Shown piece by piece: positions 2,436 to 39,103 of a stretch of DNA of 48,811 nt. The notes below the pieces were generated by a model, which did no database searches, had not been told where the DNA came from, and saw only the letters and a program-made list of their open reading frames with translations. Positions within the stretch are counted from its first letter, which is position 1, and every line of letters starts with the position of its first letter. The DNA is from a virus, in IMG/VR virus record IMGVR_UViG_3300021168_000043, positions 1 to 48,811 of that record, one strand, 5' to 3'. A program made the translations under genes and the position numbers.

Positions 2436-3410
2436 TCAGCGGGCCGCGTCAATCTTATTCGCCAGCGCCCGCTCGCCCAGTTTGCCGTCCAGCGCCTTAA
2501 TCAGCGCCAGCGCCACTTCCTGAACCTTTCCCGAATACTTACACTCATACTCCTCGCCTTTCGCCTGGGCCTTCTCCGCTTCCTTCCCCACCCCGGCAAG
2601 GCTCTCAAACATCGCCCGCAACTCACGATTCGTCAGACTAATCTTCGCCTCCGACTGTCCATCCCCCTTCGCCTGCGCCTTGGCCCGCTTCTTCGCCCTC
2701 ACCTTATCCCTGGTAACGCCCGCGCCCTTCTTGGCCCCGCCCTTCAGAATCTCCTCCACGATCTCATCCTGCTCGTCATTGTCCAGCCCAATGAGATTCC
2801 GCGCAATCGTATACCCGATCTTGCGCTCATGAATGGCCTTCTGGATATGCGCCCGAAACTCCGCCATCTGGGACACTTCCGTCACCCATGTAGGCGAATG
2901 CCCCAGGATCTTCCCCGCTGCCGACCGGGTGAGCCCAAACTGCTCCGTCATCACCTTAATCACCCGCGCATGATCAATGGGGCTCATCTCAAACCGTCTG
3001 ATATTCGCCGCCGCCCCTGCCGTGAACGCCTCCACGTCCGTCAGATCCACCAGCATGGCCTTCACCTTCATGCGCTTAGTAGCCAGCTTATTCTCGTTGA
3101 TGTATTCGATGGCCCGCACGCGGTTCGCGCCGTCCACCACCACGTTCTTCGTCCCCACCACCCGGTAGAGAATGGGGTAGAGCTGCCCCTGCCGCACAAT
3201 GTCATGCGCCAGCTCCACAATCTTCTTCGCGTCCGGCGCGTACCGGCGCACCTGCATTTCGTCATCAAGCACGATCTCCGAGACATTTAGCTCCGTCACG
3301 TTCTCCGGGAGCACCACGGCCTTCATCGAATCGAGATCAAAGGGGGCGGTCACGTTCGATACGTGGTCAGCGCCGCCTTCTTGAGCCTGTGTTTGTGTTT
3401 CTGCGGTCAT
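2436..3410 (-). CDS. ParB/Srx-domain DNA-binding protein
   Basis: 324 residues from the ATG at 3410, chosen because AAAAAGGAGAACGAA precedes it. Residues about 45-130 form a ParB N-terminal (Srx-fold) domain with a V-V-D-G-A-N-R-V motif, the usual nucleotide/nuclease-site position. Next comes a helix-turn-helix region (about 150-200) with S-A-A-G-K-I-L-G-H-S-P-T-W-V. A basic, Lys/Ala-rich linker follows, then a helical C-terminus. Such proteins act in partition, or as phage regulators or nucleases. No ParA partner is visible nearby, so regulation or replication is as likely as segregation. Confidence 0.85.
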   Translation of the reverse strand: MTAETQTQAQEGGADHVSNVTAPFDLDSMKAVVLPENVTELNVSEIVLDDEMQVRRYAPDAKKIVELAHDIVRQGQLYPILYRVVGTKNVVVDGANRVRAIEYINENKLATKRMKVKAMLVDLTDVEAFTAGAAANIRRFEMSPIDHARVIKVMTEQFGLTRSAAGKILGHSPTWVTEVSQMAEFRAHIQKAIHERKIGYTIARNLIGLDNDEQDEIVEEILKGGAKKGAGVTRDKVRAKKRAKAQAKGDGQSEAKISLTNRELRAMFESLAGVGKEAEKAQAKGEEYECKYSGKVQEVALALIKALDGKLGERALANKIDAAR

Positions 3411-3529
3411 TTCGTTCTCCTTTTTGATTTGTGAATACTTTGGTGGGGAGATCGGGCCAATACGCATGCCAGCCACGCCCTAGCCCGAATTTCGCCCTTT
3501 CTATTTCTGCCTTACCTGCCTACGCTTAC

Positions 3530-3973
3530 CTACTGCCGCCGTCCAGCTACCTGCAATTCCTCTTCTTCGTCCCCGTCTCCGTCCGATTCGTCATCATCTT
3601 CCACGCCCTCATAAGCGCCGTCAAGGTCTTCGTCCTCGTCCCCGTCAAGATCCTCGTCATCATCCTCTACCGACGCCTCAACCTGAGCCTCCGCCTGCCC
3701 TTCTCCTTCGCCTTCCCCAGCGACTTGGAACTCCACATCCTCATGCTCCACCTCCCCCACGTCCCTCCCATCCATCTCCAGCCATTCGTTCTCCGGGAGA
3801 AGGCTCACAACGTCTTTAGGGTCATCGGGATCGATATCGATGAAGGCGAGGAAACGGTGGCCACCGGCGTCGAGTGTGGCGGCTTCTCCGTAGGGGAAGA
3901 GTTCGCCTTCTGTGCCGTCGCCTGCAACGATGCGGTAGGCGTCGTCACCGTATTGAAGTTTGGGGTTAGCCAT
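3530..3973 (-). CDS. Acidic-tailed hypothetical protein
   Basis: 147 residues. The first 75 look folded (beta-rich). The last 65 are almost wholly Asp/Glu/Gly with a few Ala and Gln. Such acidic tails mimic DNA or bind basic partners in some phage proteins (possibility, not shown). An exact copy of the dispersed 13-bp palindrome lies inside it (3789-3801), encoding Leu-Leu-Pro-Glu-Asn. The 3411-3529 gap upstream of the ParB-like gene shows no clear promoter. Confidence 0.7.
   Translation of the reverse strand: MANPKLQYGDDAYRIVAGDGTEGELFPYGEAATLDAGGHRFLAFIDIDPDDPKDVVSLLPENEWLEMDGRDVGEVEHEDVEFQVAGEGEGEGQAEAQVEASVEDDDEDLDGDEDEDLDGAYEGVEDDDESDGDGDEEEELQVAGRRQ
3789..3801. promoter_or_regulatory. 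Exact copy of the dispersed 13-bp palindrome (inside a gene)
   Basis: TTCTCCGGGAGAA, identical on both strands apart from the central base. It falls in codons for Leu-Pro-Glu, which by itself would favour this string, so it is weaker evidence than the intergenic copies. Confidence 0.4.
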
Positions 3974-4238: not shown

Positions 4239-4442
4239 CTACATCACCCCCTTTTTTGGTGACGTTGGCGTAGGTGGCGTGATCTTGGCTTTCACCGTTT
4301 TACCGCATGAAACCATGTCCATGGCTACTAGTGTGTAGCGGATGTGGGTGATCGGGTCACCACAGATGATTTCTTGGGGTTTACGGAGCTGTTGGCGCAT
4401 CAGCCGGAGATCGCGGGGGGTGATGGGGATGGGGAAGGGCAT
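4239..4442 (-). CDS. Hypothetical small protein
   Basis: 67 residues from the ATG at 4442, preceded by GGGAGAAATAGG. The upstream extension overlaps the next gene fully and is not chosen. It is Pro-rich at the start and Lys-rich at the end, with two Cys. No recognised motif. It sits directly after the 49-residue gene in the leftward operon. Confidence 0.6.
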   Translation of the reverse strand: MPFPIPITPRDLRLMRQQLRKPQEIICGDPITHIRYTLVAMDMVSCGKTVKAKITPPTPTSPKKGVM

Positions 4443-4593: not shown

Positions 4594-6269
4594 CAAAGCA
4601 CCTCCTCCATCGGCACCGTCTCCACCCTGCCGCTTGCATACTCCAGCTCCACCGTTTTCTCCGCCCGGTCGGGGTAGGCCGTAGCCTCCCCGCTCTCCGC
4701 CCGGTTCTTAAACTCCGCCTCCCACCATTCCGTGCCATCCCGCCGTTTAAAGGGCACCATAATCTCCACCAGCTCCTTCTTAGCCCTGGTCACGGCTACG
4801 TAAGCAAGGTTGGTTTCCTGCTGAATCTGCCAATCTTTCCGTGCGTAAGGACTAGGCATATAGCGGTTGCGCCCGATTAAGAATACGCGATCCCACTCCC
4901 GGCCTTTCGATCTGTGGATGGTGCATAGGCGTAGGATGTCCTGCTGATTGTCGCCGAAGAGAAACTCAATCTTATTCACCAGATCATCCGTCGTCTTGAC
5001 GCTCCGGTAATGGCAGAGGTCTTTGAGTATCTCGCAGCGGTCCACCAAGGCCTCCGCCTTGCCCTCTTTCCCGGCGTCCTCAAGGCGTTTCGATTCCGAA
5101 TCCTGGTAAGCGCCCAGATACTCCAGGAACTCCTCTATGCCGATGTCCTCCCCCCATTTGGTGGCGAGGGCGATCAAGCCTTTAGTGGATGCGCCTTCTA
5201 CCACGCATGCGATGTCCATCTCCCGCAGCCGCATGGCCACCCCGACGAGGGGCCGAGTGTTCCGGCATAGGATTACGTCGTCGGGGGAGAGGCCGCCAGT
5301 CTGCGCGACCTTCCAGAAATCTGTATGGGTGAGGTTGGTGACATCGCCTTCAGGGGCGGACGGATGCGCCTCAAACTTAGGCACCCACGTCTGGGCCACT
5401 GTCACCACGCTTTTGGGGCAGCGGTAGGTGACGGATAGAGGAAGCTCATTGGAATCGAGCTGCCGCTTGATGATCTCCATCGAATCGGACGAAGCCCCGG
5501 CAAATCCGTAGATGGCCTGATGAGGATCACCCACCGCCACCAGCCGGGAGTTCTTATGCATCATCTCATACGCGATCAGCCGCCGCGCCGTATTGGTATC
5601 CTGGGCTTCGTCGATCATCACCCAATCGTACTTCCGGAACGGCGCATGGTAGTAGAGGGGGGCCAGGAGCATGTCATCGAAATCAATCACCTGCTCACAC
5701 TGTTCCAAACTCTCCCTGTAGACCTTGATGCACACTTGGATGAAGTCTTCCGTGGGCATCCCACCTGGAATCTCCTCCCTGATGTCGTAGTAGTCGATGA
5801 TGTCCTCCCAGGGCTTGGTATCAGACAGTGAGGTCTGCCCGCGTACGCCTAAGCAGTTCTGTTTAGCGAAGCTTACGGCGGAGCAGATGACGCTCACCAG
5901 CTTCTTATCCCACATGGCCGCCGGTGTGGAGGTCTTGGCGATCTTCCTGACCTTCTGCCCGTCCGGCGTCTGCAACCGCTTCGCCACCTGCCGCCATGCC
6001 CCGTACCCGGCGGAGTGGATGGTCGCGCCTTTGACGTGGTGAGAGCCTTGAGCTTGCAGGCGGGCGGAAAATTCATCGGCAATGGCCTTATTAAAAGCGC
6101 CGCAAAAGCCGGAGCCATGGATGATCTTAGCGATCTCCATAAGGGTGGTGGTCTTACCTGTGCCCGCGTAGGAGATGAGGTTTAGGCTGCCATGGCCGTT
6201 CCGTACCCATTCGAATACGGCAAGCTGTTGGGGTGAAGGGATGAAGGGGCGGGCGCTGGAGGGGGTCAT
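4593..6269 (-). CDS. UvrD/Rep-like superfamily 1 DNA helicase
   Basis: 558 residues from the ATG at 6269, which has AGGGGG about 10 bases upstream. Walker A is Y-A-G-T-G-K-T-T-T (about residues 34-42), Walker B is M-I-D-E-A-Q-D-T, and motif VI is Y-V-A-V-T-R-A-K-K-E-L near residue 505. The order matches SF1A 3'-5' helicases, but it is shorter than UvrD (about 720), with reduced 2B-type insertions, as in phage Dda/UvrD-like helicases. It would unwind DNA at the fork or in recombination. It belongs to the leftward replication operon and is coupled to the small gene downstream. Confidence 0.93.
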   Translation of the reverse strand: MTPSSARPFIPSPQQLAVFEWVRNGHGSLNLISYAGTGKTTTLMEIAKIIHGSGFCGAFNKAIADEFSARLQAQGSHHVKGATIHSAGYGAWRQVAKRLQTPDGQKVRKIAKTSTPAAMWDKKLVSVICSAVSFAKQNCLGVRGQTSLSDTKPWEDIIDYYDIREEIPGGMPTEDFIQVCIKVYRESLEQCEQVIDFDDMLLAPLYYHAPFRKYDWVMIDEAQDTNTARRLIAYEMMHKNSRLVAVGDPHQAIYGFAGASSDSMEIIKRQLDSNELPLSVTYRCPKSVVTVAQTWVPKFEAHPSAPEGDVTNLTHTDFWKVAQTGGLSPDDVILCRNTRPLVGVAMRLREMDIACVVEGASTKGLIALATKWGEDIGIEEFLEYLGAYQDSESKRLEDAGKEGKAEALVDRCEILKDLCHYRSVKTTDDLVNKIEFLFGDNQQDILRLCTIHRSKGREWDRVFLIGRNRYMPSPYARKDWQIQQETNLAYVAVTRAKKELVEIMVPFKRRDGTEWWEAEFKNRAESGEATAYPDRAEKTVELEYASGRVETVPMEEVL

Positions 6270-6529: not shown

Positions 6530-6542
6530 TTCTCCCGGAGAA
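6530..6542. promoter_or_regulatory. Exact copy of the dispersed 13-bp palindrome (intergenic)
   Basis: TTCTCCCGGAGAA in the 109-bp gap between two leftward genes. On the minus strand it is followed by AAAAA and a G-rich tract containing GGGGTAAG. The same arrangement is found in the leader at 10002-10014. A short GTACTA/TAGTAC inverted repeat lies beside it (6563-6586). Confidence 0.65.
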
Positions 6543-9273: not shown

Positions 9274-9374
9274 CGGCACATCCCCCAACGCATCAGTGCC
9301 AGATCGAGGCATAAGCCTAAGAACGGGCCTACGCCGAAGAGTACGAGGAGGGAAGTGAAGGAGGGGCGGGTCAT
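9264..9374 (-). CDS. 36-residue membrane peptide
   Basis: One hydrophobic span of about 22 residues after a short basic N-terminus, ending in Cys/Arg. It overlaps the downstream gene by 10 bases and the Ala-rich gene's stop by 4 bases. Packing and hydrophobic profile support it. Function unknown. Confidence 0.5.
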   Translation of the reverse strand: MTRPSFTSLLVLFGVGPFLGLCLDLALMRWGMCRCL

Positions 9375-9949
9375 TTGGTCGCTTCCACAGTAAAGTCCTC
9401 AGACCAAGGTTGTGCTAATCGGGAACGGATTAATGCAAGAGAATTGGCGTGCGATTCTGCCCGTGCAGCATCAGCAGCATCAGCATCAGCAGCAGCATCA
9501 GCTGCAGCATAAGCAGCAGCATCAGCAGCATAAGCAGCATCAGCTGCAGCATAAGCAGCATCAGCTGCAGCAGCATCAGCAGCATCAGCAGCAGCATCAG
9601 CTGCAGCATAAGCAGCATCAGCAGCATAAGCAGCATAAGCAGCAGCATCAGCAGCAGCAGCCCGCGCCTTGCGTCGATTCTCCTCGCTCGGATCATCGGC
9701 CCAACGCTCCGCCGCTTCAATAGCAGCTAACGCTCGTGGGTCCTTCGTGAGGTGTAACACTGTTCTGGCAATCGCGCACGCCACAAGCACGATCTCTTGC
9801 TTTGAGGCCCCATCCTTAGCAGCCCACCACAATAGCCAATCCGCCCGTTCGCATTGCTCCCATGCCTCTTTGGCCGTGCGATCCCCAGCCCATACACGGG
9901 CTTCTTGGCATGCGCCGATTGCTTTTAAGTGTTGCTTAAACGTCATCAT
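9371..9949 (-). CDS. Ala-rich repeat protein of the 'putative immunity protein' type
   Basis: 192 residues from the ATG at 9949, which has AAGGAG about 9 bases upstream. The N-terminal domain (1-95) has the pattern A-C-x-E-A...W-x-x-C-E-R-x-D-W-L-L-W-W and T-V-L-H-L, familiar from a widespread phage and bacterial family often labelled putative immunity protein. Residues about 97-160 are near-pure Ala with Asp and Tyr every few positions (A-D-A-A, A-Y-A-A), encoded by a short tandem DNA repeat. The repeat should form a long helix and may vary in length between relatives. True role unknown. Confidence 0.7.
   Translation of the reverse strand: MMTFKQHLKAIGACQEARVWAGDRTAKEAWEQCERADWLLWWAAKDGASKQEIVLVACAIARTVLHLTKDPRALAAIEAAERWADDPSEENRRKARAAAADAAAYAAYAADAAYAAADAAADAADAAAADAAYAAADAAYAADAAAYAAADAAADADAADAARAESHANSLALIRSRLAQPWSEDFTVEATK
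9465..9660. repeat. Tandem GCAGCATCA/GCAGCATAA-type repeat
   Basis: About 195 bp built from 3-bp-phased variants of GCAGCATCAGCAGCATAA and GCATCAGCTGCAG. It encodes the Ala/Asp/Tyr helix of the gene on the minus strand. The repeat stays in frame throughout. Such repeats expand and contract by slippage. Confidence 0.85.
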
Positions 9950-10001
9950 TCTTTTCCTCTCCTTCACGATCTTACCCCTATTCCTCCCTATTCCTCCCTT
10001 T

Positions 10002-10014
10002 TTCTCCCGGAGAA
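10002..10014. promoter_or_regulatory. Exact copy of the dispersed 13-bp palindrome (intergenic)
   Basis: TTCTCCCGGAGAA in the leader of the Ala-rich repeat gene, followed on the minus strand by AAAAAGGGAGG and, further on, GGGGTAAG. The neighbouring TAGGATTTTTC stretch (10018-10028) is also found beside the copy at 6530, so the two leaders are related beyond the 13 bp. Confidence 0.65.
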
Positions 10015-10078: not shown

Positions 10079-11101
10079 ATGGACTTGATACGGATCGCCA
10101 CCGAATACGGAACCGAGGAAGCCTGCCTGAACTACCTGGAAAAGGCCCGTTGGCCGGAAGGCGTCCGCTGCATTCACCGGAACGAGGAAACCGGAGAATT
10201 GGACTGCCAGTCCGACAAGATCACGAAGTTTTCCACGAAAGAAGGTCAGCGAAAGCCCAAGGCCGGAGAAAAAGAGGGGCGCAAGATCCCCGCACGGCAT
10301 CTCTACCAGTGCCAAGAATGCGGCTACCAGTTCACGGCCAAGACTGAAACCCTGTTCAACGATTCGCACTTGCCCCTAGTGAAGTGGTTCATCGCCGTCA
10401 CGCTGCTTACCAACGCGAAAAAGGGCATGAGTGCGGCACAGCTTCAGCGCGATCTGAAGGTAAACTATCAGACGGCGTGGTATGTATCCCACCGTATCCG
10501 TGAAGCGATGAAGGCAGAAGGCGGCTTATTCGGCGGTACGGTCGAGATGGACGAAACCTACATTGGTGGACGCTTTGACCCACGTCGGCATGAAGAGCGG
10601 CAGACTCATAAGCAAACGGTGATGGGTGTGGTGCAACGCTCGAACGAAGAAAAACCCTCGCAAGTTGTCGCCTTCCCCGTTCCTGGTCGCGGAACGCCAG
10701 TGATTCGCGCAGCCGTTCGGGAGCACGTTGCAAAGGACGCCAAGATCTACACCGACGAATGGTCCGGATATCGCCACATGCGCCACGAGCGCCCAGGTCT
10801 GTTCGAGATAGTCATACACTCGCGCGGTGAGTATGTTCGCGGCGACGTTCACGTGAACACGCTGGAAGGCTTCTGGTCACTATTTGAGCGCCAACTGACC
10901 GGCCAGCACCACTGGGTTTCCGTTAAACATTTGCAGAGGTATTTGGATGAGCGGTGTTGGTCGTACAACAATCGCAAGGAAGCCGACCTATTTCAGGCGG
11001 TCATCATTCGCTTGGCGATAACGGCGGCGCTGCCTTATGCGAAGTTGACCGCTGGACCGAGCGCCTCCCCGCGAACGAAACGTCGCGGCCCTCGCGCCTA
11101 A
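10079..11101 (+). mobile_element. IS1595-family (ISXO2-like) transposase
   Basis: 340 residues. The N-terminal zinc-ribbon region is modified (C-I-H-R-N...C-Q-E-C-G-Y-Q-F). The ISXO2-like DDE domain then carries V-E-M-D-E-T-Y-I-G-G, a second Asp in I-Y-T-D-E-W-S-G-Y, and H-V-N-T-L-E-G-F-W-S near residue 260, the hallmark third segment. It would cut and join its own element's DNA. It reads against the surrounding leftward operon, consistent with an insertion into a phage intergenic gap. I could not find terminal inverted repeats or a target duplication by eye, so the ends are unset (somewhere near 10030 and between 11300 and 11790). Confidence 0.9.
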
Positions 11102-12166: not shown

Positions 12167-12570
12167 TTTTCGTATTCCATTCTTCGGTCTTCGTATTTTT
12201 TTCCCGGTGTGAAGCGGTAATCCCACCACTGATCTGCGAGGAGGAACATGATTCGTATGGGATGCTCGACGAAGAAGGGCCAACGGGGCTTACGCTCACG
12301 ATGGGATAGATAGTCCGTTTCTCCGGGAGGTAGTCCGAAGCGGATCATCCTCACTTCGGTTTTGAAGTCCATGGCGGGGATAGTGAACGTTTTGAAATCT
12401 ATCTTGGGGGAAGAATCCAACGGTTCATACAGTTCCACGGCATGGAGAGGGCAACGCCGGTAAACCAAGTTGTCTTTGACGATCTCTACGGCGTAGCTGT
12501 CGAGCGTGGCGTAGATATCGGAAAGTCGGCTTTCAGGGGACCAAATCATTTTTAGTTCATCGCTCGTCAT
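12163..12570 (-). CDS. Hypothetical protein downstream of the polymerase
   Basis: 135 residues from the ATG at 12570, overlapping the polymerase stop. The middle has two Cys (R-R-C-P-L-H). The C-terminal half is rich in aromatic and basic residues (W-P-F-F, W-W-D-Y-R-F). No known domain. Coupling to the polymerase gene suggests a replication-linked role (inference). Confidence 0.6.
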   Translation of the reverse strand: MTSDELKMIWSPESRLSDIYATLDSYAVEIVKDNLVYRRCPLHAVELYEPLDSSPKIDFKTFTIPAMDFKTEVRMIRFGLPPGETDYLSHRERKPRWPFFVEHPIRIMFLLADQWWDYRFTPGKKYEDRRMEYEK

Positions 12571-14045
12571 TTGAGGTCCGACCACCTTTCTCCTTCGTCC
12601 GAAGAGGACCGTATTGGGATAGAAAGCGGGGTGGCATGTTCCAACACGTCCGTAGCTACGTCCGCGTAGTCCTTGGCCTGCCCTTTATTCACCTCTGACA
12701 AAATCTCGTCATGCACCTGGGCGAGAGGCAAGCAAACACCACCTTTGTTGAGAAGCTCAGTAATGGGGCAAAGCTCTGCCATTCCTAGTTTTATGGTACC
12801 TGTCGCGCTCGACTGGACCCCGTGATTTCCGGCCTTGCGGAGGCCTTCGTTTTTGATACGTTTATGGACTGAATAGACTTCAGGAACGTAGCGCATACGT
12901 CCGAATGCGTCCCAGACCATGCCCCAGCGGCGGGCACGCGAATACTGAAGCTCAAGCCATTCTTTGATCTTGGCGTAAGTCGCGTACCACTGATTGATGA
13001 GTTCTTCACAACGGGCGAGGGTCCATTTTTGCTCGAATGCGCGGCGCTCCTCATCTGTCCAATTGGGATCTTTGGAAAGCATGATCGATTCCAGGAGTCC
13101 CTGGGCAGTCTGGCCGTAGAGGATGCCGAAGCCTAGGGTCTTAGAGGGGAGGCGCTCGAATTGGGTGAAATATTTGTACGTTCTCTGTTCGTCTATAGAG
13201 GCCACTCCCGATTTGACTTTCTTTTTGAGGGTGGAGATTTCGTTGAGATCGCGCCCGAATATTTCGCATGCGGTCCGATCATGCACATCTTCATCCCTGA
13301 AGAACACATCCATCATCAAAGGGTCTTGTGAGAGATGAGCGGCCCATCGCATCTCGATTTGACTTAAATCATTTGCAACCAACACGTTACCGGGGGAGGC
13401 GATGAAGGCCCCTCGGATCATTTTCCCCAGTACGGTACGGGTCGGCTGATTTTGGATATTGGGATTGAACGCGGCTAGGCGGCCTGTGGCGGCAGTCGTT
13501 ACGGAGAATCTCGGATGGACACGGGAGTTTGAATCTGCCCATTGTTGAAGCGGGAGGACGTAAGTGCCTAGGAGCTTGTCTAGCTCACGCCAATCTAGGA
13601 CTAGGCCACAAGCCGGGTGGCGATCCCGATAAAGCTCAAGCACATCATCAGACGTAGAAGCGCGTTTCTCACTCTTCGTAAGCGGGAGAGGATTGGTGCC
13701 CTGGATCTTGAGATGCCGGAAGAGAAGGCGCTCGACTTGATCCGGGGAGCCTACGTTGAAGGGCTGATAGGAGCCTTTGTGGAAGTCCTGGTAGGAAGGG
13801 CCGATGGAGGCCATTAAGGCTTCTTCTATGCCGAGTTGGCCACGGAAGGATTTTTCTTTGCCGTCGATGATGCGGGTGAAGTGGTGAGAGGTGAAATCGG
13901 ATTGGAGCTGGCGGAGGTAGGGGAGGTCTACACGGATGCCGTTCTGATGAAAGAGCTGGATCATCGGCAAAGCCCCAAAATCCAATCTCCTGACGTTTAC
14001 GGGACTAGGCCGATCGATAAAACGAACGCCGTTGTAGAGCCGCAT
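12567..14045 (-). CDS. Family A DNA polymerase, polymerase domain only
   Basis: 492 residues from the ATG at 14045, one base after the upstream TAA. Motifs in order: T-G-R-L-A-A-F-N-P-N-I-Q-N-Q (about 188-201), motif A D-L-S-Q-I-E-M-R (226-233), motif B K-T-L-G-F-G-I-L-Y-G (302-311) with the Phe that favours dideoxy discrimination, and motif C V-H-D-E (444-447). It begins in the thumb, so the 3'-5' exonuclease domain is missing here; that domain is encoded separately at 16715-18268. Together the two products would form a complete proofreading phage replicase. Confidence 0.95.
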   Translation of the reverse strand: MRLYNGVRFIDRPSPVNVRRLDFGALPMIQLFHQNGIRVDLPYLRQLQSDFTSHHFTRIIDGKEKSFRGQLGIEEALMASIGPSYQDFHKGSYQPFNVGSPDQVERLLFRHLKIQGTNPLPLTKSEKRASTSDDVLELYRDRHPACGLVLDWRELDKLLGTYVLPLQQWADSNSRVHPRFSVTTAATGRLAAFNPNIQNQPTRTVLGKMIRGAFIASPGNVLVANDLSQIEMRWAAHLSQDPLMMDVFFRDEDVHDRTACEIFGRDLNEISTLKKKVKSGVASIDEQRTYKYFTQFERLPSKTLGFGILYGQTAQGLLESIMLSKDPNWTDEERRAFEQKWTLARCEELINQWYATYAKIKEWLELQYSRARRWGMVWDAFGRMRYVPEVYSVHKRIKNEGLRKAGNHGVQSSATGTIKLGMAELCPITELLNKGGVCLPLAQVHDEILSEVNKGQAKDYADVATDVLEHATPLSIPIRSSSDEGERWSDLK

Positions 14046-14046
14046 C

Positions 14047-14340
14047 TTATTTGAGAGTTCTCCCGCAGAATCGGCAGGTGCGGCCAAAGACACGTAATTC
14101 GCCCGGGGAAACGAATGCGCGTTTTAGATGAGCGGCGCGGCCAGAACAGTGGATGCAAACTCCAAGCATCTTCAGAGCAACTACGGCATTGGGCTTAAAC
14201 GGTTTGAACTCCGGCGGTTTGTAGTTAGCGGCCCACTTGCCCAAGGTTGAGCCTAGAGCGGCCCCAGCCATCGAGAAGAGATCTTCCCGGCTGATCGAAT
14301 CTGCGAAGCTGGGGGAAACAGGATTCTTTCTTCGTTTCAT
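14047..14340 (-). CDS. Small Cys-rich protein ahead of the polymerase
   Basis: 97 residues. Two Cys pairs sit in the C-terminal half: C-I-H-C around residue 58 and C-R-F-C near the end, making a likely zinc-binding site. The N-terminus is basic and Ser-rich. It overlaps the upstream gene by 4 bases and ends one base before the polymerase ATG. Could be a DNA-binding accessory protein. Confidence 0.6.
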   Translation of the reverse strand: MKRRKNPVSPSFADSISREDLFSMAGAALGSTLGKWAANYKPPEFKPFKPNAVVALKMLGVCIHCSGRAAHLKRAFVSPGELRVFGRTCRFCGRTLK

Positions 14341-15290: not shown

Positions 15291-15671
15291 TCAGGAGACT
15301 CCTTCACGCTCCGGCATGTACCAGAGTTCGTTTTGCCCTGCTGGTCTAGGGCCGCGTCTGGGCTTCATCCGGAGATGCGTGTGAATGAAGCCCAGATACT
15401 TGGCAAGAGACGGAAGCTGGTAAGCAGTAGCTAGGGCTATCGCCCGATCCACCGTGTCAAGCTGCGGACTACCGCCGTAAGCTCCAGATTCGATCTTCTC
15501 CAGCATCGGCACCGAAATCGCCAGCTTGAAGGCGAGAGACTCACGGCTCAGGTGGGAGTGCTCTCGCAGTGCGGAGAAGGCTTGGGCAGGATTGGCATAG
15601 CGTTCTGGCTCTTGAGCTACACCGCGCCGACGCCGGAGGAGCTTGCCGTAAAAATTTACTGCTGCGTTCAT
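15291..15671 (-). CDS. XRE-like helix-turn-helix protein
   Basis: 126 residues from the ATG at 15671, with AAGGAG upstream. Residues about 28-80 form an HTH: F-S-A-L-R-E-H-S-H-L-S-R-E-S-L-A-F-K-L, then P-M-L-E-K-I-E-S-G. This is the classic Cro/CI pattern, where the second helix and E-S-G turn close the motif. It is a candidate to bind the dispersed palindrome or the nearby repeat region. The C-terminus is basic and Pro-rich. Confidence 0.7.
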   Translation of the reverse strand: MNAAVNFYGKLLRRRRGVAQEPERYANPAQAFSALREHSHLSRESLAFKLAISVPMLEKIESGAYGGSPQLDTVDRAIALATAYQLPSLAKYLGFIHTHLRMKPRRGPRPAGQNELWYMPEREGVS

Positions 15672-15889
15672 ACATGCTCCTTGAGCCAAGCCTTCTCATC
15701 ATCGGACTGAGTTTCTTCCGGCCAACGGATCGCCACGGCGCGGGCATAATTCGGCGTGTTGAATTGCGGGGGGCATTTCTTCAAAGCCGCTTCAGGGCTA
15801 CTTGCTCTCACTTCTCTCAGACACGAATACATCGACACACCGCGCACTGAACGCCGATCATTCGTGAAAATTCGATATCTCTGCGTCAT
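15668..15889 (-). CDS. Hypothetical small protein
   Basis: 73 residues from the ATG at 15889, overlapping the previous gene's stop (TTATGA) and the next gene's start. The start M-T-Q-R-Y-R-I-F and the A-S-S-P-E-A-A-L-K-K-C segment resemble small phage proteins with a beta-alpha-beta DsrE-like or dsRBD-like pattern, but I cannot assign a family. Confidence 0.55.
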   Translation of the reverse strand: MTQRYRIFTNDRRSVRGVSMYSCLREVRASSPEAALKKCPPQFNTPNYARAVAIRWPEETQSDDEKAWLKEHV

Positions 15890-16233
15890 AATTGCATGTC
15901 CTTCAGGCTTGGGTTCAGCCGGTTCAGCTCCGTATGCGGAAATTGGAGTACCTTCAGCGCCCCTCTGCCCCGCGCCACTTCCCAAAGCGCCTCCGACAGA
16001 TTGGATTCAATCAGCGCCTCAAGCTGCGGGTTAATCGAATGCCACGTAGCTTGCGCCCTCCCCCACGGCCCCGCCGCGACCGCCCGCTCGTACAACAAAT
16101 GGTGGGAGTAGTAAACCTTCAACCCCTCATCCGCCAGCACCAGATAGCATACAATCTCGCTTTTCGACCTCTGGCTGTGGATGGACGTAATCTCCACCCG
16201 CCACACATCCGGGTTATCGGTAGCAGTGACCAA
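15886..16233 (-). CDS. Hypothetical protein with TTG start
   Basis: 115 residues. The start is TTG at 16233, backed by AAAGGAG about 9 bases upstream; no ATG fits. The N-terminal half is beta-rich (W-R-V-E-I-T-S-I-H...I-V-C-Y-L-V-L) and the C-terminal half helical. It is the first gene leftward of the repeat-rich origin-like region, so its transcript probably begins in that region. Confidence 0.55.
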   Translation of the reverse strand: MVTATDNPDVWRVEITSIHSQRSKSEIVCYLVLADEGLKVYYSHHLLYERAVAAGPWGRAQATWHSINPQLEALIESNLSEALWEVARGRGALKVLQFPHTELNRLNPSLKDMQL

Positions 16234-16479
16234 GCCCCAGCTCCTTTCTTCTCTTAACCACCCTCTTATTATATATCACGCTTTTCCAATTATGACGCGT
16301 AATCATTGGTAAAATCACAGCGTGCACATTACCCCTAATCAACACATTCTACATATACTTAGGTACGTTTTTAGGTGTTTTTAGGTGTGCAATAAGGCCG
16401 GAAAACGTCGGGAGAAATCGTCAACTTTACGCTTTCTTTACCTTTTCTTCGCCTTTTTGGCCTTTCTCCCGTGTTTTTT

Positions 16480-16492
16480 GTCTCCGGGAGAA
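16480..16492. promoter_or_regulatory. Dispersed palindrome, 12 of 13 match
   Basis: GTCTCCGGGAGAA, the inner end of the left arm of the 32-bp inverted repeat. It is followed by AATTTGGAGGAGGGG, the same A-tract plus G-tract order seen after other copies. Confidence 0.6.
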
Positions 16493-16598
16493 ATTTGGAG
16501 GAGGGGTAAAAACGTGGAAAAAACTCCTAAATTTCCGGGAGAAAGGGGTTTGTAAAAAACCGGGTGGTCATTTTCTTTACGTACCTTTACAAATAGTC

Positions 16599-16611
16599 TT
16601 CTCCCGGAGAC
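16599..16611. promoter_or_regulatory. Dispersed palindrome, 12 of 13 match
   Basis: TTCTCCCGGAGAC, the inner end of the right arm of the 32-bp inverted repeat. A half site GGGAGAAAGGGG follows 10 bp later. Confidence 0.6.
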
Positions 16612-16714
16612 AAAAAACACGGGAGAAAGGGGTTTGTAAAAAGTTGCCGGTCCATTTTCTTTACAGTCCTTTACAAATGGCTTACAAATTCTGCGGTTTT
16701 AGGCTTAGGGCTTC

Positions 16715-18268
16715 TTATGGGCGGTAGGTATTGAGGTACCGGGAGAGCCTAAGCGTGGCATCGGCGTCAGGGCAAGCATACCCTACCAGCTCCTTTTCGG
16801 GGACTAAGGCGATGGATTTCTCCGGGAGAAGGCCGAAGAGGGAGTAGAGGAGATCGATCTCCCAGGGGTGCCATTCGGAAATGGTGTGCCAGGGATCGAC
16901 AGGTTTGGGGGAAGAATGAGGCGTAAGAAGATCATTAAGCACCTTGGTGGAGAGGCCACGGAGCTTGCGGATGAGAAGATTGGTAAGCTTGTCGGGCTTA
17001 GGGGATGGACGGCGGGAGAACTTTTCGCAGGAGCATGGGCCGAAATTAGATTCTTCGGCTTCATGGAGGCAGTAGCCGGAATGGCGCTTGCTCTTGCCTT
17101 TTTCCTTATGCTTGCTTTGTGGGTGGCCACACATACAAAAGGGTTCAGGATCGGATGCTTCAGAGGACGCTAGAAAGGATGTGGCTCGATCCAGATAATC
17201 ATAGACTAGGGGAAGGGCGTGAGGGCGAACCACATCATTAAAAGACTGCATCTTCATATTGAGATGGCGATAGGCCAAGACCTTTAAGCCTAAGCTTCCT
17301 CTGGCGGCCCCGGAGTCTTCATCGTCGCCGCCTCCGCCGATGCCTAGGTTGTAGGCGCGGACCATGGTGTCACTGAATCTTCTGGGGTCGATGGGCAGAC
17401 CCATGGAGGCGTAGGGGGAGGCGTCGGCTAGGTAAGCGTGGAAAGAGAGCAGAGGGCGGTAAGCTTTCAGGTAAGAGGCGTAGGAACCAAGGATAGCTTT
17501 ATTGTCGGCGTAGATGAGACGGGCGGTGCCAGGGGTATGGGAGAAAGTTAGGCAGTGGGGATGGGTGGGGGAGAGGAATTCTGTGTCTGTGCCAAATTCG
17601 TAGAAGTGTTCGTTGAATCTGCCTATACCACCAACTAGGTCTAAATAGGCGTCGAATTCGGAGAGAGTGCATAGGACGGAGTAGTCGGTGGCGGGGTATG
17701 AGTCGGAGGGCCAGGAGAAGGTGCCGGAGTCCAGATCCTTAAGGAGAAGGCGGAGGGCGGCGAAATCCTTGCGAAGGGGGATCATGTAGGCGGTGGAGCG
17801 GAGACCAGCGGCGGGGTGGAAGGTGGGGAAGACGATGCCGGACCAAGGGCCGTAAGATGCGGGTTGGGGGAGGCCGTGGTGAAGGACTAGGGAGATAGAG
17901 GGGAAGAGAGAGGCGGAGATCGCGCCCATGGTGACGATTACTTGGGGGTTTACTTTTTCGAGGAGGGCGGGGAGGTGCTTGGCGGAGCATGTGGCGGCTT
18001 CGTGTTCTTTGGGATTACGGTAACCTTTATCGGAACAGAGCACAGCATTAGAAACGGCTACGTCTTCGCGGTAGAGAGCACAGAGGGGGAGGTATCCGTT
18101 ATTAAACTCCATCCCCGATTGGCCACGGTCGGCAAGGGGGATGCCTTGCTCGTCTTCGTGACGGGCGGGCCTTTCTGCCAAGAAAAGAATTCGGCAGGGG
18201 GAGGGGCCGGAAGGGGGGATGGGATTGCGGCCACGAACGCATGGGCATATGGAGCAACGGGAGATCAT
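16715..18268 (-). CDS. Uracil-DNA glycosylase-like domain fused to a 3'-5' exonuclease
   Basis: 517 residues. Residues 1-175 follow the Fe-S UDG family 4 plan: Cys at 5/8/10, then Cys78 and Cys94 spaced as in that family, and H-P-A-A at 151-154. The first UDG motif is altered (A-E-R-P-A-R-H-E-D-E), so glycosylase activity is doubtful. Residues 215-517 match the PolA proofreading domain: D-T-E (228-230), H-A-Y-L-A-D, D-T-M (300-302) and Y-A-C-P-D near the end. A C-M-C-G-H...C...C-S-C zinc-knuckle insert lies near 378-414. An exact palindrome copy lies inside the gene (16818-16830). It supplies the exonuclease that the polymerase at 12567-14045 lacks. Confidence 0.85.
   Translation of the reverse strand: MISRCSICPCVRGRNPIPPSGPSPCRILFLAERPARHEDEQGIPLADRGQSGMEFNNGYLPLCALYREDVAVSNAVLCSDKGYRNPKEHEAATCSAKHLPALLEKVNPQVIVTMGAISASLFPSISLVLHHGLPQPASYGPWSGIVFPTFHPAAGLRSTAYMIPLRKDFAALRLLLKDLDSGTFSWPSDSYPATDYSVLCTLSEFDAYLDLVGGIGRFNEHFYEFGTDTEFLSPTHPHCLTFSHTPGTARLIYADNKAILGSYASYLKAYRPLLSFHAYLADASPYASMGLPIDPRRFSDTMVRAYNLGIGGGGDDEDSGAARGSLGLKVLAYRHLNMKMQSFNDVVRPHALPLVYDYLDRATSFLASSEASDPEPFCMCGHPQSKHKEKGKSKRHSGYCLHEAEESNFGPCSCEKFSRRPSPKPDKLTNLLIRKLRGLSTKVLNDLLTPHSSPKPVDPWHTISEWHPWEIDLLYSLFGLLPEKSIALVPEKELVGYACPDADATLRLSRYLNTYRP
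16818..16830. promoter_or_regulatory. Exact copy of the dispersed 13-bp palindrome (inside a gene)
   Basis: TTCTCCGGGAGAA near the 3' end of the UDG-exonuclease gene, encoding Leu-Leu-Pro-Glu-Lys. It lies about 200 bp from the repeat cluster and may add to it, or may only reflect preferred codons. Confidence 0.4.
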
Positions 18269-18957
18269 TCCACTAATCCGCCTTCCGCGTTTTCTTCTTC
18301 TAAGGCTAAGGTGTCTTCTTCGTTGATCTGGGAGGCTTCCCAGGCTTCGCTGAATTCCCGGTTGGAGAACATTTCGGCTAGGCCGCTGATTTGAGAGAGG
18401 CGGAGGACTTCATCAGGGTCCATGCCAAGCTCGCGGCCTATCTTCTCATTGCTCCAGTTACGGCGCTTCAGCTCCACCACAATTTCACTCATGGCGTCGA
18501 TCTGGTGCTTGCCGCGAGCGCGGTTATGGCGGATGGTGGCGGCGATTAGGTCGGAGCGGTCTTGACGGTCGGAGTTGATGATGGTGATGGGGAGGTAGCC
18601 TAGGACACGGTCCCGGACTTCGGCACATTCTTTGCCTACGCGGTTGCGGTGGAATCCGTCTACGACTACGAAGCCCTTGCCTTCTGCCATGGCGACGATT
18701 GGTTGGGTGTAGCCGTCATTCTCGATAGAAATCTGGAGAAGCTTCATTTCAGGGGGAGCCACGTTGTTTGGGTTGTAATCGTTGGCTTCCACTAGATCGC
18801 TCTTTATCCAGAGTACGCAGTCTACAGGCTCATTCTTGAGTGGGCTTACAGAATGAATAGCGAGCTTGATCTTGTTAATCGCTTCTACGCAGTCATCCGT
18901 GTCGAGCTTCTTAAGATACTTCAACAAGGCGTTGACGTAGGGCTTTATAGATTCCAT
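18265..18957 (-). CDS. ibrB: IbrB-like ParB/Srx-fold protein
   Basis: 230 residues from the ATG at 18957, with GGAGAGAGAA just upstream. A ParB-type N-terminal domain has L-V-E-A-N-D-Y-N-P-N-N-V-A and V-V-V-D-G-F-H-R-N-R (about 105-115), then a helical DNA-binding-like region (I-A-A-T-I-R-H-N-R-A-R-G, and I-G-R-E-L-G-M-D-P-D-E-V-L-R). This is the domain order of IbrB, which with IbrA activates distant prophage genes in E. coli. It overlaps the IbrA-like gene by 13 bases. Whether it regulates, or acts in DNA modification, is open. Confidence 0.8.
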   Translation of the reverse strand: MESIKPYVNALLKYLKKLDTDDCVEAINKIKLAIHSVSPLKNEPVDCVLWIKSDLVEANDYNPNNVAPPEMKLLQISIENDGYTQPIVAMAEGKGFVVVDGFHRNRVGKECAEVRDRVLGYLPITIINSDRQDRSDLIAATIRHNRARGKHQIDAMSEIVVELKRRNWSNEKIGRELGMDPDEVLRLSQISGLAEMFSNREFSEAWEASQINEEDTLALEEENAEGGLVE

Positions 18958-20156
18958 TTCTCTCTCCGGCGTTTCATCAAGTCCAGGTATTTTTGGTAGG
19001 CTTCGGAGCGGTGCTGGGTGAAGCTTAGGCCTTTGCACCAATAATCGTTCCTAAGAAGACTTTTGCACACTCGCCGCCACGAGGGAACTTTGCGGTCAGC
19101 CTCCAATTTGTAATCGGCTTCGTCGGGGATGCCGTCTGGATAGCCACGTTCCATCCACCATTTTCTGAAGACAGCGATCTTATTCCCATAATGGATACGG
19201 GTGCATGGAGGCATGGAACGGATGAGAAGATCGGCGAAGCTTTCCCAGGTGTGGCCTTCGGGTTTGCTGATGCGGCGGTACCCGGTCATGTTGCCGGATT
19301 CCTGGACGTAGAGAGCGCCTCCGTTAGCGCCGTTTACGCGGGCGACAACGCGGCCCCAGGTTTCGGGCTCGATGAGGTGGAAGAGCCATAAGCCCTTGCG
19401 CTGGTCGTCGCCGTAGGGCTGGCAGATACGCATCTGGGAGACGGTGAGGCCAGCCTTGTGCATGAGGTCGTAGAGGTGATTATGGGGGAGGGATTTGTTT
19501 TTGCCGTGGTAGGTCCAGATGTCTTCGGTCTTCCAGTCGTAAATGGGGTAGACGTTGTAGACTTCTGGGGAGGTTACTAGAGTGGTCCAGCGTACTCCGT
19601 CCTTCATTTGCTTGTTGGGGCTTGAGATGGTGCGGTAGCGGTTGAGGCTTTCATCGGCCCGGATGCCTACGAAGCAGGCGCATGGGAGGCCTTGGCCGTA
19701 CCAAGCTCCGAATTCAGGGACGAACTCCTCGAATTCCATGCCGGAGTGGAAGAATGGGAAGAAGGACGGATCAGTGATCGCTATGGCTGGGGGAGTTCTG
19801 ATCCAAGCTGGTTCTTTTGTTTTTTCCCAACACACCCAATGAGTCTCGTATACGCTTACGGCGTTACGAAGATGAATAGGCAGGCAGCACCAATACGGGT
19901 CGATGTGGTCTTCGTATTGGCGGTAACACCGCATGATGTGGTTGATAGTGATAGTGTATTGGCCTTCGAGGTCGATGAAGAGGACGCCTACTTTTCTGTC
20001 TCTTCTCACGGCTTCGTCCATTACGAGGTGGAGCATCACGGTGGAGTCTTTGCCGCCGCTGAAACTTATGTAGATGCGCTCGAAATGATCGAAGGTCCAG
20101 GAGATGCGGCGGCAGGCGGCCCGGAGGACGTTGATGCCTAGGCCGTGTTTAGGCAT
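18945..20156 (-). CDS. ibrA: IbrA-like PAPS-reductase-family (PP-loop) protein
   Basis: 403 residues. The PP-loop S-G-G-K-D-S sits at 33-38, typical of N-type ATP pyrophosphatases and PAPS reductase/DndC relatives. The downstream pattern (F-I-D-L-E-G-Q-Y, P-Y-W-C-C-L-P, P-I-Y-D-W-K-T-E-D-I-W) matches IbrA/DUF3440-type proteins. PAPS-reductase-specific ends are absent, so sulphate reduction is unlikely. Adenylation of a substrate, perhaps DNA sulphur or base chemistry or a regulatory activity with IbrB, is inferred. Operon order is 20149-20532 gene, ibrA, ibrB, all overlapping. Confidence 0.85.
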   Translation of the reverse strand: MPKHGLGINVLRAACRRISWTFDHFERIYISFSGGKDSTVMLHLVMDEAVRRDRKVGVLFIDLEGQYTITINHIMRCYRQYEDHIDPYWCCLPIHLRNAVSVYETHWVCWEKTKEPAWIRTPPAIAITDPSFFPFFHSGMEFEEFVPEFGAWYGQGLPCACFVGIRADESLNRYRTISSPNKQMKDGVRWTTLVTSPEVYNVYPIYDWKTEDIWTYHGKNKSLPHNHLYDLMHKAGLTVSQMRICQPYGDDQRKGLWLFHLIEPETWGRVVARVNGANGGALYVQESGNMTGYRRISKPEGHTWESFADLLIRSMPPCTRIHYGNKIAVFRKWWMERGYPDGIPDEADYKLEADRKVPSWRRVCKSLLRNDYWCKGLSFTQHRSEAYQKYLDLMKRRREKWNL

Positions 20157-27712: not shown

Positions 27713-27778
27713 TTCTCCGGGAGAAAAAAGGGGGGAACGGCGGCCCCGGAGAAGAATAGTGAGAACCCGTTCCCCCTT
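27713..27778 (-). terminator. Terminator hairpin with adjoining exact palindrome
   Basis: On the minus strand the gene at 27823 is followed by a stem between 27767-27776 and 27730-27740 (GGGGGAACGG pairing with CCGTTCCCCC). A CTTTTTT run then leads straight into TTCTCCCGGAGAA (27713-27725 is the exact 13-bp palindrome). The stem and U-tract form a Rho-independent terminator. The palindrome sits right at the RNA-release point, which recalls stoperators that sit near promoters and stop sites. Confidence 0.65.
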
Positions 27779-32254: not shown

Positions 32255-32297
32255 CCTTCTCCCTCTATGCACAAGCGGGAGAAGACGCGGGAGAAAC
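32255..32297. promoter_or_regulatory. Operator-like half sites between the divergent promoters
   Basis: CTTCTCCC (32257-32264) and GGGAGAAG (32277-32284) form a dyad, followed by a third half site GGGAGAAAC (32290-32298). These are halves of the 13-bp palindrome, set between the leftward and rightward promoters, where a regulator could act on both. Confidence 0.5.
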
Positions 32298-32307
32298 CTA
32301 CTATTAT

Positions 32308-32337
32308 TTGACTTCCGCTTGGGACTAGCCGGATAAT
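32308..32337 (+). promoter_or_regulatory. Rightward promoter of the Cro-like gene
   Basis: TTGACT (32308-32313), an 18-bp spacer and GATAAT (32332-32337): five of six consensus bases in each box. It reads toward the structured leader and the HTH gene at 32440. Confidence 0.65.
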
Positions 32338-32347
32338 GTGCCTCAGA

Positions 32348-32431
32348 GGGGGCCGGTCCACTCACTTGCTAATCAGTCATGCGATGCTGGCGCGTTCCGG
32401 GAGGGGCGTCAGTTTCTCCCGACCGGCCCCC
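32348..32431 (+). ncRNA. Structured leader RNA with an 11-bp closing stem
   Basis: GGGGGCCGGTC at 32348-32358 pairs perfectly with 32421-32431, enclosing 62 nt. A second stem, GGGAG/CTCCC, lies inside (32400-32420). It lies between the promoter and the start of the HTH gene, which itself lacks a good ribosome-binding site. It could be a regulatory 5' leader, attenuator or small RNA. It is not a tRNA: no TTCGA loop or D-arm fits. Confidence 0.5.
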
Positions 32432-33704: not shown

Positions 33705-33717
33705 TTCTCCCGGAGTA
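33705..33717. promoter_or_regulatory. Dispersed palindrome, 12 of 13 match
   Basis: TTCTCCCGGAGTA, 12 bp upstream of the lipoprotein ATG on the minus strand. Its CGGGAGAAAAAC end overlaps the likely ribosome-binding region, so bound protein or the RNA hairpin could block translation. Confidence 0.55.
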
Positions 33718-36568: not shown

Positions 36569-36903
36569 TCCTCAAGCACCCCCCAAATCTGCCCGTGCTT
36601 CACCACCACGTACTGATTATCCATCTCATCCATATGCCCCTGATAAAACACCCTCACCCCGTACACCAGCCTACCCAAATCCTCCTCCAGCCACTCCGTC
36701 TTCAGATACTTATCCCGCTGCGGATTATTCCTCACCACCACCCCCTCGCGCATCGCCTTAAGCTGCTCATGTGCTTCGGCGGCGTTCTCCGGGAGATGTA
36801 GAGAGCCGTGCATGAGCGGCGTGGGGGAGACGCGTAAGAGGCAGGAGCCGGGAAGCGGGAGGAAGCGGACAGCCATGCCGGGGGTGAGATGGAGGCTAGG
36901 CAT
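36565..36903 (-). CDS. GroES-like co-chaperonin
   Basis: 112 residues, the size of phage GroES/Gp31-type proteins. Ends with the typical strand pattern V-R-V-F-Y-Q-G-H-M-D...Y-V-V-V-K-H-G-Q-I-W-G-V-L-E. The central mobile-loop equivalent is L-H-L-P-E-N-A-A-E-A. It would cap host GroEL to fold phage proteins such as the capsid. Contains a 12-of-13 palindrome copy (36785-36797) in the loop-coding region. Confidence 0.75.
   Translation of the reverse strand: MPSLHLTPGMAVRFLPLPGSCLLRVSPTPLMHGSLHLPENAAEAHEQLKAMREGVVVRNNPQRDKYLKTEWLEEDLGRLVYGVRVFYQGHMDEMDNQYVVVKHGQIWGVLEE
36785..36797. promoter_or_regulatory. Dispersed palindrome, 12 of 13 match (inside a gene)
   Basis: TTCTCCGGGAGAT within the GroES-like gene, encoding Leu-Pro-Glu-Asn on the minus strand. 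May reflect codon choice rather than an operator. Confidence 0.3.
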
Positions 36904-38017: not shown

Positions 38018-38289
38018 GCAGCCTCTTCTTGTTGGTCCTTCGTCCATTGAATCATTTTCTCTTCCGACCCGTGGGAAGGGGCCGGAGCTTCGTTGTAGAG
38101 GAAGAGGCACACCTGCCTAAGATCCGTGATCTGGTCCACGCGCCCCACGGCTTCCCGCAGATCGTTCTTCAGGCAAGCCTGTAAGAAGTGGCCGGGGAGG
38201 ATGCCGTGCTCCAGATACCGCTTCATCCCGCCGGTGAGGTGCTCCGGGAGAATCGAGTAGTCGATGTCAGCGGGGAGAAGATGCTTCAT
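38014..38289 (-). CDS. Conserved-type small phage protein
   Basis: 91 residues with pattern L-T-G-G-M-K-R-Y-L-E-H-G-I-L-P-G-H-F-L-Q-A and L-K-N-D-L-R-E-A-V-G-R-V-D, then L-Y-N-E-A-P-A-P-S-H-G-S. I recall this pattern from many unnamed phage proteins. A 12-of-13 palindrome lies within it (38240-38252). Role unknown. Confidence 0.7.
   Translation of the reverse strand: MKHLLPADIDYSILPEHLTGGMKRYLEHGILPGHFLQACLKNDLREAVGRVDQITDLRQVCLFLYNEAPAPSHGSEEKMIQWTKDQQEEAA
38240..38252. promoter_or_regulatory. Dispersed palindrome, 12 of 13 match (inside a gene)
   Basis: TGCTCCGGGAGAA near the start of the 38014-38289 gene, encoding Leu-Pro-Glu. Weak on its own because of codon context. Confidence 0.3.
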
Positions 38290-38428: not shown

Positions 38429-39103
38429 GTGATGGAAACGGCAGAAAAACCCCTAGGACTAGCATTTGCTTATCTCCGGGTGAGCGGCAAGGGGCAGATC
38501 GAAGGGGATGGCTTCACTAGGCAGCTTACGGCGATCCAGGCGTACGCGAAGGCCCAGGGGGTGAAGATCATCGATGTGTACCAGGAGAAGGGCGTGACGG
38601 GCACTGTAGACGGCATGGACCGGCCTGCCTGGGTCGAGATGATCGAGCGGATCATGGCGAGCGGTGGGGAGGGAATCGTAATCGAAAGGCTAGACCGGCT
38701 TGCCAGGGATCTGATGATTCAAGAGCACATTTTGAAGGATCTGAAGCGCCGGGGGATTAAGATCGTTTCTGTGGCAGAGCCGGACCTGTGCACCGACGAT
38801 CCCACCAGAAAGCTTCTCCGCCAGATCATGGGCGCGATCGCGGAGTACGACAAGACCATGATCGTGTTGAAGCTCCGGGGGGCGCGGCAGCGGAAGCGGG
38901 CGAATGGGGAGAGATGCGAGGGGGCCAAGCGGTACGGAGAAAAGCCGGGAGAAAGGCTGGTGCTGAAGCGGATCGCCACAGCGCGGGCGGCGGGGGAAGG
39001 GCTCCAGAAGATTGCCCAGACGCTTAATGACGAGGGGATCAAGCCCCGGCGCGGGGAGAAGTGGCATGCCAGCAGCGTGAGAAGCGTGCTGATGAACGCT
39101 TAA
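38429..39103 (+). CDS. Small serine recombinase (resolvase/invertase family)
   Basis: 224 residues; GTG at 38429 or ATG at 38432. The catalytic Ser lies in A-Y-L-R-V-S-G-K-G-Q (residue 19). R-L-D-R-L-A-R-D and M-G-A-I-A-E-Y-D-K follow, as in resolvases. A C-terminal HTH (G-L-Q-K-I-A-Q-T-L-N-D-E-G-I-K-P) ends the protein. It lacks the long C-terminal part of large serine integrases, so it is more likely a resolvase or invertase than the phage integrase. It may invert nearby fibre genes or resolve multimers. Confidence 0.9.
   Translation: MMETAEKPLGLAFAYLRVSGKGQIEGDGFTRQLTAIQAYAKAQGVKIIDVYQEKGVTGTVDGMDRPAWVEMIERIMASGGEGIVIERLDRLARDLMIQEHILKDLKRRGIKIVSVAEPDLCTDDPTRKLLRQIMGAIAEYDKTMIVLKLRGARQRKRANGERCEGAKRYGEKPGERLVLKRIATARAAGEGLQKIAQTLNDEGIKPRRGEKWHASSVRSVLMNA

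Follow-up and report, generated by a model that had tools for sequence, protein, structure and literature searches.

The window, i.e., the whole stretch of DNA analysed here, is a virus record of IMG/VR of 48,811 bases, classed as linear and possibly a fragment. The locus under study is a noncoding gap with minus-strand genes on both flanks, which an earlier note, made from the letters alone, had read as an origin or control centre lying next to an AT-rich stretch, between the genes of the polymerase and the proofreading exonuclease. The description of the setting is accurate: the GC content of the gap is 41.6%, compared to 55.4% overall, and the gap is located between the family-A polymerase gene cluster and the gene encoding uracil-DNA glycosylase (UDG) and 3'-5' exonuclease domains. 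The main features of the locus are as follows:

12567–14093, minus strand: family-A DNA polymerase domain, separate gene
15291–15689, minus strand: helix-turn-helix protein of the XRE type, encoded two genes downstream of the control region and a candidate for binding the palindrome
15886–16233, minus strand: g115, first gene after the control region, no family, conserved in the related contig L014
16234–16714, no strand: noncoding control region, 481 bp, between the UDG-exonuclease gene and g115
16715–18268, minus strand: UDG and 3'-5' exonuclease half of a family-A replicative polymerase

Past the gap, the order is g115, the XRE-type protein, further small genes and the family-A polymerase gene. 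The two polymerase proteins match consecutive segments of the profile PHROG 17 (1445 long), 739–825 and 844–1233, so that a single polymerase appears to be divided over two genes, the control region lying in between. When viral and genome collections were searched with proteins, one close relative was found, the 19.3-kb contig L014, which shows 62–73% identity in the main proteins, the same gene order and the same polymerase split. The halves lie at 12567–14093 and 16715–18268 in the window and at 1206–2774 and 5031–6521 in L014, and in both phages some 2.6 kb, made up of small genes and regulatory DNA, separates them.

The gap is rich in repeats, which are listed below:

16282–16313, no strand: imperfect 32-bp dyad TTTTCCAATTATGACGCGTAATCATTGGTAAA, 13 of 16 pairs, immediately upstream of a TATAAT for g115
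16409–16417, minus strand: isolated half-site TTTCTCCCG; more isolated half-sites occur elsewhere
16425–16441, minus strand: GTAAAG pair, 11-bp spacing
16461–16492, plus strand: arm 1 of the inverted repeat, with the half-site TTTCTCCCG at 16463–16471 and a palindrome copy at 16480–16492
16480–16492, no strand: palindrome copy GTCTCCGGGAGAA, one mismatch, in arm 1
16531–16543, no strand: weaker palindrome copy ATTTCCGGGAGAA
16536–16594, plus strand: direct repeat copy A, 59 bp
16575–16590, minus strand: GTAAAG pair, 10-bp spacing
16599–16630, plus strand: arm 2 of the inverted repeat, with a palindrome copy at 16599–16611 and a half-site at 16620–16628
16599–16611, no strand: palindrome copy TTCTCCCGGAGAC, one mismatch, in arm 2
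16620–16678, plus strand: direct repeat copy B, 59 bp, 81% identical to A
16659–16674, minus strand: GTAAAG pair, 10-bp spacing

The two 32-nt arms, 106 nt apart, are 100% complementary; none of 40 dinucleotide shuffles of the gap gave an exact inverted repeat longer than 16 (mean of the longest 9.75), so the repeat is far beyond chance. The perfect inverted repeat of the earlier note is thus borne out, as is its observation that the palindrome and its half-sites are built into both arms; the same palindrome has many copies genome-wide. The two direct repeats that were said to follow the arms are present (59 nt, 81% identity, spacing 84), but not simply after them: copy A sits between the arms and copy B overlaps the end of arm 2. 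The iterons CTTTACAAAT were found at 16585–16594 and 16669–16678. The motif GTAAAG/CTTTAC occurs six times in the gap (mean 0.5, maximum 3 in shuffles), forming three direct pairs with spacings of 10, 10 and 11 bp, and there are no other such pairs within the window. The dyad at 16282–16313 is unrelated to the 13-bp palindrome and may be an operator of another protein.

It could be supposed that the inverted repeat acts chiefly by forming a hairpin in RNA or DNA (for processing or attenuation, or as a cruciform) rather than as paired operators, and the minus-strand RNA indeed folds to −75.9 kcal/mol (z = −8.8). Any perfect 32-bp repeat, however, would fold equally well, the loop is 106 nt long, L014 lacks the inverted repeat and the content of the arms is that of operator half-sites, which are found elsewhere without partners; the hairpin reading is very improbable. 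The Rfam search yielded a tRNA as its sole match and no known RNA element. The promoter-proximal leader, a part of which is conserved in L014, was also considered as a structured RNA and rejected (z = −1.0).

The core palindrome TTCTCCSGGAGAA is a near-perfect dyad with a mixed central base (TTCTCC-S-GGAGAA), and no other 13-bp palindrome recurs in the record. TTCTCC-N-GGAGAA has six exact copies, and each other half-site among the listed exact 13-bp palindromes occurs once. Scanning with a symmetrised matrix, where strong sites were those scoring at least 18.8 (control maximum 14.5), revealed about 14 strong sites in the 48.8-kb record and about ten weaker ones. The gap contains their densest cluster, with copies at 16480, 16531 and 16599 and extra half-sites, and an exact fourth copy lies nearby, inside the exonuclease gene. 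The copies outside the gap, listed without strand, are as follows:

3301–3313: one mismatch, inside the ParB-like gene
3789–3801: exact, intragenic; raw skew step at 3795
6530–6542: exact, between the topoisomerase and helicase genes; without a skew step; L014 equivalent at 10972
10002–10014: exact, upstream of the 9371–9967 gene, beside an IS1595 transposase gene; L014 equivalent at 7472
14058–14070: one mismatch, at the polymerase start; downward skew step
16818–16830: exact, TTCTCCGGGAGAA, at the 3' end of the UDG-exonuclease gene; raw GC-skew step at 16799
27713–27725: exact, intergenic; skew step
33705–33717: one mismatch, upstream of plus-strand genes; raw skew step at 33712
36785–36797: one mismatch, intragenic; raw skew step at 36770
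38240–38252: one mismatch, intragenic; weak skew step only
41600–41612: one mismatch, intragenic; raw skew step at 41625
45879–45891: exact, intergenic; raw skew step at 45897

About half of the sites are intergenic, while intergenic DNA makes up 18% of the window by our own gene calls. Intragenic copies with at most one mismatch number seven, compared to 0.34 expected under synonymous shuffling; none of 300 shuffles reached seven (maximum 3), which rules out chance or codon usage as their source. The divergent intergenic region 32288–32421 contains two half-sites TTTCTCCCG and lacks both a full palindrome and an upward skew step. Near the copy at 10002, the predicted protein of 9371–9967 includes a long low-complexity Ala/Asp/Tyr repeat AAADAAYAAADAA, and the neighbouring IS1595-family transposase gene occupies 10079–11101.

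A comparison with L014 showed a different motif in equivalent places. The palindrome TTCTCCSGGAGAA has no copy in L014, which carries a dispersed element of its own, i.e., five exact copies of TTCACCCGCAAAA inside a longer ATTCACCCGCAAAAATTTCGGGG context. Equivalent sites were found before the helicase (6530 in the window, 10972 in L014, with homologous downstream sequence, GTTGGG...GTGGGAGGAA), in the gene run downstream of the polymerase (10002 versus 7472) and within the 3' portion of the exonuclease gene (16818 versus 2564, at a different codon). The position of the gap is kept as well (2778–3071 in L014) with a different sequence, including a tandem GAATCGGGTGAATCGGG; the conservation of the repeats, which the earlier note had proposed as a check, was not observed for the 32-bp inverted repeat. 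Position 3789 has both an element and a skew step in the window and neither in L014. Judging from the two sequences, the network of sites is conserved and its motif is spelled differently, which is what the co-evolution of a regulator with its sites would be expected to produce.

The palindrome copies coincide with changes in strand composition. The coding-strand skew of G versus C, taken at four-fold sites, declines along most gene runs and resets upward at the elements, giving a sawtooth, and the largest coding-strand step of the window (+1.2) is in the region of the gap. In raw GC skew, computed without any gene calls, all of the top seven upward steps of the window lie close to a palindrome copy (25, 19, 7, 18, 113, 6 and 15 bp away), and all of the top four in L014 lie 7, 19, 6 and 83 bp from an element. 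The observed mean step was reached by no rotated set of elements in the window and by one of 692 in L014. On a 300-bp scale, the skew is about −0.4 to −0.55 to the left of a site and about +0.2 to +0.4 to the right (sites 3789, 33705, 36785 and 41600 and L014 site 7472). The exceptions are 6530, which has no upward step, 38240, where it is weak, and 14058, where the step is downward. An artefact of gene calling was rejected as the source of the steps, since the gene-free version keeps them. The skew consists of an exchange of C and G with A and T nearly constant, which simple cytosine deamination does not explain.

The same calculation gave a mean step of 0.01 for 15 T7 promoters and of −0.002 for 33 Bxb1 stoperators, so ordinary promoters and stoperators give no step by default, and the steps are not a general property of operators or promoters. 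This adds weight to a different explanation, in which the dyads would be replication-start sites: an initiator would be loaded at each copy, bidirectional forks would be launched and a G-rich leading strand would produce the upward step, with the gap, containing iteron-like GTAAAG pairs, an AT-rich leader and the inverted repeat, as the main origin. The steps have the sign and the symmetry of those at origins, they are sharply placed even within genes, the skew falls smoothly from site to site and continues to do so past the divergent gene switch at 32.3 kb, and the largest coding-strand step is at the gap. On the other hand, this explanation requires about ten origins in 49 kb, the AT skew shows no consistent step, there is no DnaA-box cluster, site 6530 lacks a step, and a model of skew following gene direction fits the window better (log-likelihood −2439) than site-symmetric models (−2466 to −2473); in L014, the gene-direction model is slightly worse (−918 versus −914). 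Such mixed fits do not separate the transcription and replication readings. On balance, we regard initiator loading at each dyad as rather unlikely. In a broader form, each dispersed dyad would be a replication start or the site of some other two-sided strand-asymmetric process, giving about ten sawtooth domains in 49 kb, which also seems unlikely; if a multi-start reading of this kind were true, relatives could differ in the recognition sequence and still keep the domain boundaries in place.

Two proteins of the window were considered as candidates for binding the palindrome. The XRE-type protein encoded at 15291–15689 matches Pfam HTH_3 with an E-value of 5e-4, below the curated cut-off; its predicted structure (pLDDT 76) has XRE/Cro-type folds as the best matches (E-value about 0.03–0.3) and resembles Cro, P2 C, DdrO and controller proteins (E-value 0.03 and above). 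The alternative candidate is an orphan ParB/Noc-like protein:

2436–3476, minus strand: orphan ParB/Noc-like protein

HMM searches clearly indicate the relationship of this protein to the ParB family (HTH_ParB, E-value 6e-11; TIGR00180 above its cut-off), and it matches Noc/ParB structures; its own structure model was of low confidence and was left out of the analysis. Both proteins are conserved in the window and L014, with diverged recognition helices; as both helices differ between the genomes, covariation cannot choose between the two candidates. We prefer the XRE-type protein, a choice which rests on its place beside the cluster in the gap. A ParB-like gene adjoins a PAPS-reductase-like gene at 18265–20156 (phrog_2159, phrog_2302), a pair reminiscent of IbrB/IbrA.

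Should the orphan ParB/Noc-like protein be the reader, the dyads might serve as loading sites of a clamp protein, either a KorB-like global silencer or an organiser of the nucleoid or of segregation, and the gap would be only one cluster among the loading sites. The protein is a true member of the ParB family with an HTH_ParB domain, conserved in L014, and the copies at 3301 and 3789 lie in or beside its gene; KorB is able to exert its effect far from the operators that it binds (PMC11790492), and the sites of Noc are spread over the chromosome (PMC4331003). Against this, no ParA was seen among the ORFs scanned, which were a part of those in a record that is possibly a fragment; the ParB gene of L014 has no element next to it, and the dyad differs from the consensus of parS and of the Noc-binding sites (NBS). 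Loading by a ParB-type clamp is, in our view, improbable.

The best explanation, with about an even chance of being right, is that the region is the hub, in a tailed phage, of genome-wide sites of the operator or promoter type, recognised by a phage-encoded dimeric DNA-binding protein and marking the starts of transcription units. Such a protein would read the dyad and control the transcription starting at the sites, and the sawtooth of skew would be the footprint of transcription beginning at each of them. The XRE-type protein is the first candidate and would then regulate its own gene and serve as the immunity or early repressor. Second in line as a reader comes the orphan ParB/Noc-like protein. 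The cluster in the gap lies upstream of the g115–XRE–g124–polymerase run, on a background of GTAAAG direct-repeat pairs. This reading is favoured by the copy number and specificity of the palindrome, the excess of intragenic copies, the equivalent placement of a changed motif in L014, the skew steps at the elements of both genomes, the XRE-type fold and the ParB-family membership of the two candidates and the better fit of the gene-direction model in the window. Several findings argue against the operator or promoter reading: a scan of the control region for sigma-70-type promoters and terminators passed nothing, sites 6530, 38240 and 14058 deviate, Bxb1 and T7 show no steps, the skew is an exchange of C and G that simple cytosine deamination does not account for, and the comparison rests on one close relative.

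Of the two functions named in the earlier note, that of a control centre is upheld in part, inasmuch as the gap holds the densest operator-like cluster, upstream of an XRE-type gene, at a position kept in L014. A unique origin is not supported. The gap has GTAAAG pairs and is AT-rich; it contains no DnaA-box cluster, and no known initiator was recognised. The skew change proposed as a check was indeed found at the region, as the largest coding-strand step of the window, but about ten sites share the signal, the switch occurring also at many other palindrome copies, so the step does not single out the hub as an origin. A single origin of the chromosome type was rejected on the same two grounds.

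A few phages and plasmids are known to have dispersed networks of operators. As far as limited literature searches go, none is known to us whose sites match flips in strand composition to within tens of bases, also inside genes and in a relative using a different motif. The closest known systems are the stoperators of Cluster A phages (PMC6550527) and sites of the KorB/Noc type (PMC11790492, PMC7383237); the network is filed under neither, because each has one or more defining features that are absent or unproven here. Stoperators of L5 and Bxb1 are 13–14-bp repressor sites found genome-wide, mostly off promoters, and related Cluster A phages use related but different motifs (PMC6550527). The likeness lies in the many dispersed sites of 13–14 bp, 20–30 in Cluster A and 14 strong plus weaker ones here, seven of them intragenic; stoperators, however, are asymmetric and oriented with transcription, whereas the window site is a near-perfect dyad, and those of Bxb1 have no skew step while the window sites mostly do. 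The OB operators of plasmid RK2 are read by KorB, a long-range repressor of the ParB family (PMC11790492), and the phage genome likewise encodes an orphan protein of this family with an HTH_ParB domain (2436–3476); unlike in RK2, no KorA- or IncC-like partner was identified in the phage, and the protein is a candidate binder only. Noc sites and parS are dyads read by HTH_ParB proteins, and the phage protein matches Noc/ParB structures, but the 13-bp dyad with its central S differs from both consensus sequences.

In the immunity and early control regions of phages lambda, P2 and P22, clustered operators adjoin the gene of an XRE-type regulator, an arrangement that the hub may resemble; here, the putative operators are also found genome-wide. 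What could point to an immunity region in the window is the XRE-type gene two genes downstream (a weak match, below the Pfam cut-off, for a putative repressor), and what could point to a temperate lifestyle is a short serine-recombinase gene (38429–39103). The latter is possibly truncated and contains a Resolvase domain and the beginning of a Recombinase domain. Start-associated sequences of Cluster K mycobacteriophages are short sequences repeated at many gene starts (PMC3203893); in contrast, the window copies are dyads, several of them intragenic, and are not placed as ribosome-binding sites.

If the coincidence of sites and steps were confirmed, the skew sawtooth would become a sequence-only locator of transcription or replication starts in uncultured phages, and the cause of phage strand asymmetry would become directly testable. 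The topoisomerase-sharing phages L015–L019 were rejected as comparators, being too distant and showing no comparable sawtooth. One of them, L015, has its own repeated dyad, TGCGCGATATCGCGCA, at 4329–4386 and 5784–5880.
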